Below are positions 1 to 35,194 of a stretch of DNA of 35,194 bases, in pieces. How positions within the stretch are numbered: position 1 is the first letter of the stretch; every line of letters begins with the position of its first letter. The stretch lies in IMG/VR virus record IMGVR_UViG_3300025407_000011, positions 1 to 35,194 of that record; one strand, written 5' to 3'. Made by a program: the position numbers and the translations under genes. Origin of the DNA: a virus. The notes under the pieces are model-generated. The model did not search any database. It saw nothing but the letters and a program-made list of their open reading frames with translations, and was not told the origin of the DNA.

Positions 1-127
1 TTCGAGGTTAAGAGTCGAGTTTTTGTATGCTCCAGCAAGGTGAGCAATGACCCAAGCGAACTGGTAAGTGTTAAGCTCCGATGTGGCGAACTCAGCAACT
101 TGGTCAAGTCCGTCTGCATAGACTCTA
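1..127. repeat. Terminal direct repeat, left copy (circular assembly overlap)
   Basis: This stretch is identical to the last 127 bases of the window. The terminase frame continues correctly when the two copies are merged, so the molecule was assembled as a circle of 35,067 bp. The length of 127 equals a common maximum assembly k-mer, which favours an assembly overlap over a biological terminal repeat. Confidence 0.95.
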
Positions 128-5860: not shown

Positions 5861-6046
5861 ATGTATTTAGTCGTATGGGTAGCTTTGGGCGTAAATAACG
5901 AACCCCGTGACCTTTGGGTTGCACATGAGAGCTTAGAGGATGCTAGAACGCATTACAACGCTCTAATTGCCTTGGATGAGGTCTACACCGTCTCAATCTG
6001 TGCAGTAATTGAGAGCACAGATTACACACCAACAGAGGTAATATGA
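5861..6046 (+). CDS. Small early protein, unknown (61 aa)
   Basis: 61 aa from the ATG at 5861, which has AGAGGTG nine bases upstream; longer in-frame starts near 5771 lie across the hairpin and lack a ribosome-binding site. The sequence YLVVWVALGVNNEPRDLWVA is strand-like. It is followed by HESLEDARTHYNALIALDE, a helix, and a last strand (VYTVSICAVIES). The strand-helix-strand order is compact. It overlaps the methyltransferase start (ATGA at 6043-6046), so it is translationally coupled to it. Confidence 0.72.
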   Translation: MYLVVWVALGVNNEPRDLWVAHESLEDARTHYNALIALDEVYTVSICAVIESTDYTPTEVI

Positions 6047-6791
6047 ATGAGTTGGCTCTTTTCTCGGGCGTTGGTGGAGGCATACTGGGGGAAAGCTCCT
6101 CGGCTGGAGAACCGTCTGTGCAGTCGAGTGGGACACTTACGCTGCAGGGGTATTGTGCGCCCGACAAAATGATGGACTTCTTGCCCCTTTCCCGATATGG
6201 GATGACATACGCACTTTTGACGGAGTCCCTTGGAGGGGACGTGTTGACGTGGTGTCTGGCGGATTCCCTTGTCAGGATTTGTCAGTCGCAGGACACGGGG
6301 ATGGACTGGATGGAGAGAGGTCTGGACTATGGGGAGAGATGTCCCGAATTATTGGGGAAGTACGACCCCGATACACATTCGTGGAAAATAGCCCAAACCT
6401 CACTAATAGAGGACTCACCCGAGTGCTTGCAGACCTTACCCAGATGGGGTATGACACACGCTGGTGCGTTATGGGGGCTAACTCCGTGGGTGCGCCCCAC
6501 AAAAGAGACAGAGTGTGGATTGTTGGAAAGATTCCCGACCCCCAACGCTTGGGATGGGAGGAGAGGCCCACTTTCAAAAGAGTTGTACGAAAAGAAAACC
6601 AAGCAGATAACTCTGGTGACGTTTATTCGACACTCTGCGCAGACTCCCCCAAATGGTGGTCAACTGAACCCCTCGTGGGTAGAGTGGCTCATGGGGTGGC
6701 CGATAGGGTGGACAGACTTAAAGCAATTGGAAACGGACAAGTCCCCCTGTGTGCTGCAACCGCTTGGAGGGTCTTGACAAGTTCCTTTTAA
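6043..6791 (+). CDS. dcm: C5 cytosine DNA methyltransferase, split by a -1 frameshift
   Basis: This enzyme transfers a methyl group from SAM to cytosine C5. The first 16 codons (MNELALFSGVGGGILG, motif I) are in one frame. From 6090 the -1 frame continues GKLLGWRTVCAVEWD (motif II region), GGFPCQD with catalytic C77, VENSP at 114-118 (motif VI), APHKRDRVWIV at about 151-161 (motif VIII), and AIGNGQVP at about 228-235 (motif X). The joined product is 249 aa. The frames part at a G5 run (6087-6091); six Gs would restore one frame. Without a shift the -1 frame has only a TTG at 6153 and lacks motif I. AGAGG precedes the ATG. The target-recognition part between motifs VIII and X is short, about 65 residues. 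Confidence 0.8.
6169..6777 (+). CDS. Overprinted protein in the second frame of the methyltransferase (WVEWLMGWP type)
   Basis: The frame that holds the methyltransferase start stays open to 6777 without shifting. From ATG 6169 it reads 202 aa: LSRYGMTYALLTESLGG, DVLTWCLADSL, KYDPDTHSWK, LPRWGMTHAG, and finally LNPSWVEWLMGWPIGWTDLK. From memory these blocks match a protein family found beside cytosine methyltransferases in many environmental phages. Its C-terminal motif is the alternative-frame reading of methyltransferase motif X. The ATG at 6169 has no good ribosome-binding site, so the product may instead start at 6043 (244 aa). Function is unknown. Both frames look conserved, but selection on this one is unproven. 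Confidence 0.5.
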   Translation: MMDFLPLSRYGMTYALLTESLGGDVLTWCLADSLVRICQSQDTGMDWMERGLDYGERCPELLGKYDPDTHSWKIAQTSLIEDSPECLQTLPRWGMTHAGALWGLTPWVRPTKETECGLLERFPTPNAWDGRRGPLSKELYEKKTKQITLVTFIRHSAQTPPNGGQLNPSWVEWLMGWPIGWTDLKQLETDKSPCVLQPLGGS

Positions 6792-11025: not shown

Positions 11026-11277
11026 ATGGATTGGTTTCCCAAACATGAAGCGGGGCTTTCTTTAGAGCACAATGAACATAAAAATGTTTATATGTGCATT
11101 GAAGACTATTACCCTGCTGACCAATTTATTTCAGAAGATGACCGTCAAAAATGTATTGATACCAATGAAGTTTGGCGTTTACATTGGTATCCAGAAACTC
11201 CAATAGGGTTTCATGTAATTTGTGCATCATCTATAGATTTAATTCAAAAACAACTAAAGGAAAAAAATTATGACTAA
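11026..11277 (+). CDS. Small protein ahead of the glycan genes, unknown
   Basis: 83 aa with AAGGA five bases before the ATG. It is acidic and aromatic: WFPKHEAGLSLEHNEHKN, then CIEDYYPADQFI, DTNEVWRLHWYPETPIGFH, and a C-terminal helix ending LKEKNYD. It overlaps the glycosyltransferase start by eight bases, so it belongs to the same operon. I recall similar orphans next to phage glycosyltransferases but no function. Confidence 0.75.
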   Translation: MDWFPKHEAGLSLEHNEHKNVYMCIEDYYPADQFISEDDRQKCIDTNEVWRLHWYPETPIGFHVICASSIDLIQKQLKEKNYD

Positions 11278-12019
11278 AAAAGGAAATATATTCGTCTGTA
11301 CGCCAATGTATGGTGGCATGTGTACAGGCTACTACACACAGAGTTTGCTAACACTCGGACCAGTGCTCAATCAAAATGGCTATGACATGGCTTATTCCGC
11401 TATGTTTAACGAGTCTTTGATTCAGCGAGGACGTAACGCACTTGCTCACGGGTTTATGCAGCGCCCCGAGTGCACGCACTTGATGTTCATAGATGCAGAT
11501 ATTAAGTTCAATCCGCAGGACATCATCAAGATGATTGAAGCCGACAAGGACATCATTTGCGGAATATATCCTAAGAAGGAAATCAACTGGGTAGAGGTCG
11601 AGAAGGCCGTCAAGGAAGGTGTGCCTACAGATAAGCTAAAAACACGCACAGCAAGCGTTGTAGTCAATTTAAAGGACTATGCGGGTAGCGTAACTGTCCC
11701 TGTCAGTGAGCCTGTAGAAATCTTTAATGGTGGTACAGGCTTTATGCTTATCAAGCGCAACACTTTTGAAGTAATGAAGTCAGTTGTCAATAGCTACAAC
11801 AATGACGTGCTGTTCTTAGATGGTGGCATTTCTAACGACCGCATTACCGAGTATTTTGCTTGTGCTATCGAGCCAGGTACAGAAAGACTGCTCTCAGAGG
11901 ATTATTTCTTCTGCTGGAAAGCTAGAGAAGCAGGGCTTAAAGTCTGGGCAGCACCTTGGGCGCAGTTAGGTCATTTTGGTAGTTACTTATTTGAGGGTGG
12001 ACTCACACCAGCACCATGA
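11270..12019 (+). CDS. GT-A-type glycosyltransferase
   Basis: 249 aa. The N-terminus NIFVCTPMYGGMCTGYYTQS is the nucleotide-binding strand region. RGRNALAHGFM (about 53-63) and THLMFIDADIKFNP (about 69-82) carry the DxD-type motif (D75, D77) that binds metal and sugar nucleotide. IFNGGTGFMLIKRNTFE and LSEDYFFCWKAREAGLKVW match the acceptor-side motifs of phage and viral glycosyltransferases. It overlaps the FkbM gene by ATGA, so the two act together, perhaps building and O-methylating a glycan on the virion or host surface. The acceptor is unknown. Confidence 0.82.
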   Translation: MTKKGNIFVCTPMYGGMCTGYYTQSLLTLGPVLNQNGYDMAYSAMFNESLIQRGRNALAHGFMQRPECTHLMFIDADIKFNPQDIIKMIEADKDIICGIYPKKEINWVEVEKAVKEGVPTDKLKTRTASVVVNLKDYAGSVTVPVSEPVEIFNGGTGFMLIKRNTFEVMKSVVNSYNNDVLFLDGGISNDRITEYFACAIEPGTERLLSEDYFFCWKAREAGLKVWAAPWAQLGHFGSYLFEGGLTPAP

Positions 12020-12705
12020 ACAAAGAAATACAAATCGAATTTAATGCGGGTAACCTGATACCCCACTATCAACAGAAATTTCGTCTCTATGACCGTTTTC
12101 TGCCTCATCTAGCACCCTATTTGCAAGGTACTGTAGTTGACGTAGGGGCTAATTGCGGGGCACTAGCTGTTTCTATGGGTCTGAACAATCCTGAACTTAG
12201 CTTTATCTGCGTAGAGCCTGAAGAACAATGTTTAGAACTTTTGCACAAAAACATAGCAAAAATAGAAAATAAGGTAGATGTCATCAAGGGCAAAGTAGGC
12301 ACAGAGCACATCAAATTAGATGAAATCGTAAAAGGAGATGTTGGTCTTCTTAAAATTGACGTAGATGGCTACGACTGGGACGTAATCAACACTTTTAGTT
12401 TTGCCACAACACCCCCTATTTACATAGAAGAAGACGGTAAAGAGGAATGGCAGTATTCCAAGTATTTTGATATGAACCACAGGCTGAAAGAGCAGAAGTA
12501 CAACAATATTTGGATGTTTGACAACTATGGCTGCTTAATCGGGTTCACCAAGAAATGGACGGAAGTAGACACACTCAATGCCTACATCAATCGTATGAAA
12601 AAGGGTAAATCAGAGCAAACCTTGTGGTATGTAGATTTGCTCATCTGCCAAGATGAAGATGTACAGAACTTAGGTAATGCAGTTCTTGCATATTTGGAAA
12701 AGTGA
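12016..12705 (+). CDS. FkbM-family SAM-dependent methyltransferase
   Basis: 229 aa. TVVDVGANCGALAVSMG (about 39-55) is the SAM-binding motif I, CVEPEE (65-70) is motif II, and LLKIDVDGYDWDVI (111-124) is the FkbM hallmark KIDVEG-x-E-x-xV. These enzymes usually O-methylate sugars. Coupled to the glycosyltransferase before it, it likely modifies that enzyme's product. It is the last plus-strand gene and is followed by the convergent terminator. Confidence 0.85.
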   Translation: MNKEIQIEFNAGNLIPHYQQKFRLYDRFLPHLAPYLQGTVVDVGANCGALAVSMGLNNPELSFICVEPEEQCLELLHKNIAKIENKVDVIKGKVGTEHIKLDEIVKGDVGLLKIDVDGYDWDVINTFSFATTPPIYIEEDGKEEWQYSKYFDMNHRLKEQKYNNIWMFDNYGCLIGFTKKWTEVDTLNAYINRMKKGKSEQTLWYVDLLICQDEDVQNLGNAVLAYLEK

Positions 12706-34556: not shown

Positions 34557-35194
34557 TTTTACCCCCGTATACGCCAATAGCTTTTAAGTAATTACTCACA
34601 TTCTTGCCAACAGCCAGTTGTTCAGGGGTGTACTCATCCTGACGCAAGGACATTTCTTTTGACAGACGCATACCAATGAGTCTAGGCTGGACTTGTTCTG
34701 CCCACGCAATGGTTGCTAGGGCTGCTGCAATCACACGGTCATCCTTACCACGACCAGGTGCGCCTATGAATCCGTCTTCACGAACAATACCTTTCATTTC
34801 CTCCAACGTGTCCATGCTGAAGATGCCCATCATGCCCCGCTCAAAGTAATCTTTCATGTAGGAGAGCATACGCTCTTTAGATGATGAGGTTGTCAAGAAG
34901 CCTATGGAGTTGGACAGACCCCCCATCGTATCGTTTCTACGCCAAATGTAGTTTTGCATACTACCTAGTACGTCCATCATGTCCTTAGCCATAGGACCTT
35001 GGATAGCTGCTGCTAGTCTCTTGAGGTTACGGAGTTCGTTGATAACGGCTTGTCCTGGTCCGTTGACTTCGAGGTTAAGAGTCGAGTTTTTGTATGCTCC
35101 AGCAAGGTGAGCAATGACCCAAGCGAACTGGTAAGTGTTAAGCTCCGATGTGGCGAACTCAGCAACTTGGTCAAGTCCGTCTGCATAGACTCTA
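34543..35194 (-). CDS. terL: Terminase large subunit, C-terminal part (continues at the left end)
   Basis: The same gene as the partial CDS at 1-1245, read across the circle join. In the circle it gives residues 416-589; bases 35068-35194 duplicate the left end. The sequence NSTLNLEVNGPGQAVINELR leads into the end of the nuclease domain. GRGKDDRVIAAALATIAWAE supplies the last acidic pair (D524, D525), typical of terminase nuclease domains. It ends SNYLKAIGVYGGKNATS. Confidence 0.93.
   Translation of the reverse strand, partial: RVYADGLDQVAEFATSELNTYQFAWVIAHLAGAYKNSTLNLEVNGPGQAVINELRNLKRLAAAIQGPMAKDMMDVLGSMQNYIWRRNDTMGGLSNSIGFLTTSSSKERMLSYMKDYFERGMMGIFSMDTLEEMKGIVREDGFIGAPGRGKDDRVIAAALATIAWAEQVQPRLIGMRLSKEMSLRQDEYTPEQLAVGKNVSNYLKAIGVYGGKNATS
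35068..35194. repeat. Terminal direct repeat, right copy (circular assembly overlap)
   Basis: Identical to bases 1-127. Removing one copy gives a circle of 35,067 bp in which the terminase frame is continuous. Confidence 0.95.

Follow-up and report, generated by a model that had tools for sequence, protein, structure and literature searches.

The window analysed here, the full 35,194 nucleotides of IMG/VR virus record IMGVR_UViG_3300025407_000011, contains two long open reading frames on the plus strand, at 6043-6777 (244 aa, frame 1) and 6153-6791 (212 aa from a TTG codon), the latter in a frame that stays open back to 6051. Frame 0 at 6093-6791, here called alpha, encodes the body of a C5 cytosine methyltransferase, as indicated by matches to PF00145 (E 3.9e-28), phrog_363 (E 1.4e-59) and, in the PDB, M.HhaI (E 1e-10), and by hhalign alignment to a single-chain enzyme. 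The alpha frame contains motif IV (GGFPCQD, 6258-6278), motif VI (ENSP, 6384-6395), motif VIII (HKRDRVWIV, 6498-6524) and motif X (AIGNGQVP, 6723-6746). Motif IX and the target recognition domain were not found in the alpha chain, and the PF00145 match stops at profile position 166 of 324.

The +1 frame, here called beta, is open to 6777 and matched phrog_1008 (E 9e-19) and phrog_26627 (E 4e-13), with no match in Pfam or NCBIfam. Its body, defined with the help of an alignment of 114 sequences, extends over 6169-6777 (MMDFLPL to GGS; stop codon TGA at 6775-6777). Three blocks are recognized in it. The block KYDPDTHSWK (6358-6387) is conserved in the alignment of relatives and lies opposite RPRYTFVENSP of alpha. 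A PTP repeat unit, FPTPNAWDG (6532-6558), of which relatives have one to several, marks a target-recognition-like region. The third block (NGGQLNPSWVEWLMGWPIGWTDL, 6652-6720) is equivalent to motif IX, since it aligned with residues 398-420 of the single-chain enzyme L499 (hhalign E 1.9e-8, probability 95%). Thus, a preliminary description of this locus was right that two conserved protein families occupy overlapping frames, with the methyltransferase motifs in one and KYDPDTHSWK-type blocks in the other. It had also placed the WVEWLMGWP block over motif X, but this block (6652-6720) overlies WWSTEPLVGRVAHGVADRVDRLK of alpha, immediately 5' of that motif.

In relatives, alpha starts with MNELALF and beta with MSWLFSQ, the latter from an ATG located 4 nt downstream (ATGAATGAG). 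The beta ATG was found at this position in all 42 loci that had been selected with alpha. In 19 loci, the alpha start is located further upstream, and in 17 of these a Shine-Dalgarno-like stretch is present inside alpha at the right distance for the beta ATG. The window shows the same layout, with a Shine-Dalgarno-like AGAGG (6034-6038) upstream of both start codons, an alpha ATG followed by motif I (MNELALFSGVGGGILG, 6043-6090) exactly as relatives start, and a beta ATG at 6047-6049 (ATGAGTTGG, reading MSW).

The window copy differs from the relatives just downstream of these starts. Methyltransferase motif I occupies the initial 16 codons of the 6043 open reading frame. In relatives it is read in the alpha frame, but in the window a G/A run at about 6085-6096 differs in length by one nucleotide and joins it to the beta frame. 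The beta ATG in turn enters an open reading frame of 41 aa (6047-6172). As a result of this frame change, the window as assembled has no continuous frame for the full length of alpha or of beta. The change may represent a mutation, an assembly error or deliberate frameshifting, and intact copies are present in relatives. Purposeful use of ribosomal frameshifting or polymerase slippage at the run (about 6088-6095) to make alpha would fit the G-run followed by AAAG at this site, where a single shift would restore alpha and beta together. A scan for closer relatives that span the frame change gave only contig L177, which is identical over 8575 bases (100%) and has the same run length, but may derive from the window's own sample. 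The arrangement of the window is absent from the relatives that we read, whose genes require no shift. Two bacterial loci (L464:2273-3013 and L443:4203-4976) resemble the window in having joined alpha and beta frames, though their junctions lie elsewhere, as expected of mutation or error. Purposeful frameshifting is thus very improbable.

We searched viral contigs twice, using one query per frame, and obtained 157 loci including the window's own sequence. Wherever the frames could be placed, both were open across the gene, the second typically for 230-300 codons, and the third closed within tens of codons. The overlap is present in named phages of Vibrio, Salmonella, Pseudomonas, Acinetobacter, Klebsiella, Microcystis, Mycobacterium, Porphyromonas, Stenotrophomonas and Synechococcus, among which the identity of alpha falls to about 35%. 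Annotators of the Vibrio and Pseudomonas records chose beta as the gene, whereas alpha was chosen in others. A further scan, with beta as the only query, covered genomes of bacteria and archaea, and 80 loci were retained. A methyltransferase core was identified by script in the -1 frame of 67 of them and in other frames of none, and the remaining 13, read by eye, all contained methyltransferase sequence in the -1 frame (two of them, L443 and L464, are frame-joined and one, L471, is a remnant). No beta without alpha was found among the 80 bacterial loci, and on this basis we reject the second frame as an independent gene family.

Long overlaps of two conserved proteins on the same strand are rare, and annotation tools usually give only one of the two. 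The arrangement described here is kept in hundreds of related phages and bacteria, and their annotation normally shows one product of two. In PHROG, the two products are already listed under different families, with phrog_363 (alpha) and phrog_1008 (beta) labelled as DNA methyltransferase, but its output is silent on the fact that phrog_363 and phrog_1008/phrog_26627 share DNA in overlapping frames. None of the papers covered by our literature search describes this overlap in phages.

We asked how far the openness of the second frame exceeds the expectation from random synonymous recoding, in which the alpha protein and the codon usage of each gene were kept. Across 125 distinct loci, 22 stops were observed in the beta frame as compared to 610 expected, whereas the third frame contained 1952 stops as compared to 1651 expected. 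The 22 stops fall in nine loci and, in distant loci, mostly outside beta proper. For 37 relatives chosen by the methyltransferase frame alone, there was a single beta-frame stop, with 165 expected. In the window itself the beta frame has no stops where 6.0 are expected, and about 2 of 2000 recodings reached zero. This result agrees with the earlier statements that the second frame is open throughout and has been kept; the frequent stops in relatives that would have contradicted them were not seen. Single-chain C5 enzymes of the Streptococcus type served as the control and contained 1171 stops as compared to 1374 expected; a Paenibacillus-type control set was removed, as it proved to be dual-coding itself. 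At 65-75% protein identity, the dual genes showed an identity at fourfold sites of 0.64-0.68, as compared to 0.47-0.48 for the single-chain control; as base composition differs between the two sets, we take this as supporting evidence only.

The conservation of beta varied along its length. In the PTP region, beta was the most conserved of the three frames (0.21, versus 0.16 and 0.14), and in the middle block its conservation exceeded that of the third frame. The tail with motifs IX and X was highly conserved in alpha and beta alike. Over the first 105 residues of beta, conservation was at or barely above that of the third frame (0.325 versus 0.316 in distant pairs). Judged from these alignments, the C-terminal half of beta is under a constraint of its own. 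Together with the identity at fourfold sites, the regional pattern does not agree with the possibility, raised at the outset, that only the methyltransferase frame is constrained. Since residue conservation in the N-terminal part of beta resembles that of the third frame, the missing stops and the conserved start are the sole support for that part.

An alternative explanation is that the second frame is open merely through the codon usage and conservation of the methyltransferase. The lack of excess identity in beta residues 1-105 would be compatible with this, as would the slight shortage of stops in the single-chain controls (0.85 of expectation). However, the shortage in the beta frame was obtained with the codon usage of each gene preserved, the beta ATG and its Shine-Dalgarno stretch are conserved, and in the variable region beta is better conserved than alpha. 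The probability of this explanation is therefore close to nil, and chance openness is ruled out by the combination of synonymous recoding and single-chain controls.

The distribution of motifs suggests what beta may be. Motif IX is missing from alpha, which otherwise has motifs I-VIII and X. It is found in beta together with the PTP-repeat region, and in the beta family the sequence LNPxWVEWLMGWPxGWTDL is nearly invariant and accompanied by one or more PTP units. In the single-chain enzymes L494, L499 and L500, motifs I-VIII, the PTP units, a motif IX reading EWMMGWPEGW and motif X all follow each other in one frame and one protein. Profile comparisons placed alpha on residues 5-181 (E 7.6e-33) and 415-453 (E 3.5e-4) of L499 (458 aa), with beta at residues 398-420 and in weaker matches at the PTP units. 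The N-terminal residues of beta (about 100) have no counterpart in the single-chain enzymes. Comparison of beta with a Streptococcus-type methyltransferase profile gave an alignment at motif IX that was not significant.

A third layout is seen in the mycobacteriophages Noelle (gp77/gp76; L229) and Ryadel (gp8/gp7; L230), in which two genes overlap in a staggered manner and both are annotated as DNA methylase. The second gene of each pair encodes PTP units, EWMMGWPEGW and then motif X, and the two genes probably encode one enzyme that is divided between two subunits. Vash, L222, L455 and L466 resemble these pairs, with a second open reading frame containing the target recognition domain and motifs IX and X. 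Beta aligned with the split second subunits at a probability of 99.9% (hhalign, E 1.6e-31), and phrog_116 comprises an alpha part (226-389) followed by a second-subunit part (409-497). In L466, alpha ends after motif VIII, but the same frame still reads WWSIEPRLGGMAHGLA further downstream, which suggests that motif X has changed frame. An evolutionary order from single-chain through staggered to nested genes is what we infer from these forms.

The preliminary description had proposed that the second protein was born inside the methyltransferase gene. The C-terminal half of beta corresponds to the PTP region and motif IX of single-chain enzymes, and thus looks like a displaced part of the enzyme rather than a newborn gene; a product of de novo overprinting is expected to lack homologues outside the overlap, and the PTP and IX blocks occur in single-chain frames. 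Genuine overprinting could be limited at most to the N-terminal residues of beta (about 100), where the evidence is weaker. In a related explanation, beta arose by overprinting as a separate protein, which would bind or regulate the methyltransferase without contributing to the structures for catalysis or target recognition. The lack of Pfam and NCBIfam matches and the N-terminal region without single-chain counterpart are in line with this. It is nevertheless unlikely, given that the motif missing from alpha is present in beta and that the PTP and EWMMGWPEGW blocks are enzyme parts in both single-chain and split relatives. The role of enzyme partner, which had been suggested as one option, is by comparison of the motifs the most likely one.

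Structure prediction with AlphaFold for beta alone yielded pLDDT values of 52 and 64 and pTM values of 0.20 and 0.28 in runs with alignments of 42 and then 114 sequences. The models had no fold match in the PDB. Their best matches in a viral structure library were unnamed proteins and one S-adenosylmethionine-dependent methyltransferase. Sequence searches of the PDB with beta or Noelle gp76 gave unrelated low scores only. A subunit that folds together with another chain might well give models of low confidence, although this is no evidence for such folding.

A C5 methyltransferase of two polypeptides is known from M.EcoHK31I, which has the specificity YGGCCR and whose smaller polypeptide is encoded in another frame inside the larger gene. 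The locus family described here shares this placement of the smaller polypeptide's frame. The larger M.EcoHK31I polypeptide contains motifs I-VIII and X, the smaller contains motif IX, and the larger one has also been assigned the target recognition domain (PMC3404938, citing Lee, Kam and Shaw 1995). Alpha and beta display the motif layout described there, except that in the window copy motif I is not read in the frame of the other alpha motifs. They differ from M.EcoHK31I in that the PTP target-recognition-like region is in beta and not in the larger subunit. In addition, beta spans nearly the whole of alpha with a start 4 nt later, the genes are phage genes, and no restriction enzyme was recognized adjoining the window gene. 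In M.AquI, another two-polypeptide enzyme, the smaller subunit carries motif X as well as motif IX (PMC3404938). This layout resembles the staggered pairs (Noelle gp77/gp76, L222, L455 and L466) and not the window, where motif X is in the alpha frame.

Thus, sequence comparison indicates that two polypeptides from overlapping same-strand frames of this locus very probably make up a single C5 cytosine methyltransferase of the M.EcoHK31I type. Alpha would provide the large catalytic domain (motifs I-VIII) and motif X, whereas motif IX and the PTP repeats would come from beta in the +1 frame. Because the PTP region sits between motifs VIII and IX in single-chain relatives, beta probably chooses the DNA target. 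In the relatives, a single mRNA would yield both polypeptides, with ribosomes recruited to a common binding site initiating at either of two start codons spaced by 4 nt, so that the amounts of the two polypeptides would be tied. Alpha and beta are predicted to associate into the active enzyme, which probably protects phage DNA from host restriction. The overlap has likely been kept across phages and bacteria because its two frames encode components of a single enzyme.

This division would explain why many C5 methyltransferases in the databases lack motif IX, and it calls for caution, since alpha cloned or modelled alone may be inactive. The locus also offers a natural system of two proteins evolving under mutual constraint, with single-chain, staggered and nested versions all at hand for comparison. 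More broadly, we consider it somewhat likely that such genes, in phages as well as bacteria, form a large class of C5 methyltransferases of ancient origin. In this class, the subunits would be nearly co-extensive on one strand, with one frame evolving for catalysis and the other for target choice, starts 4 nt apart would give equal dosage, and motif X would shift frames across lineages.

A few additional observations were made. Phage methyltransferases of the Paenibacillus type (L231:1450-2487 and L314-L393) lack motif IX and have a distinct beta family in the +1 frame, with the pattern KMTVTSG..LLFRLVPS..PTP..LNPxWVE.LMGFP; in Paenibacillus phage Hobie, the annotation covers alpha only. The open frame of L385 begins as alpha and continues in the same frame with PTP units and LNPRFVAEMMGFPPNW but without motif X, and is thus a frame-swapped form. 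In the window, the open reading frame at 12016-12705 showed weak matches to the phage methyltransferase families phrog_8156 and phrog_6380, and adjoins an open reading frame at 11270-12019 of phrog_1574, a family of unassigned function. The ends of the window (1-127 and 35068-35194) form a 127-base direct repeat, and the record thus probably represents an entire phage genome (about 35 kb) that closes into a circle.
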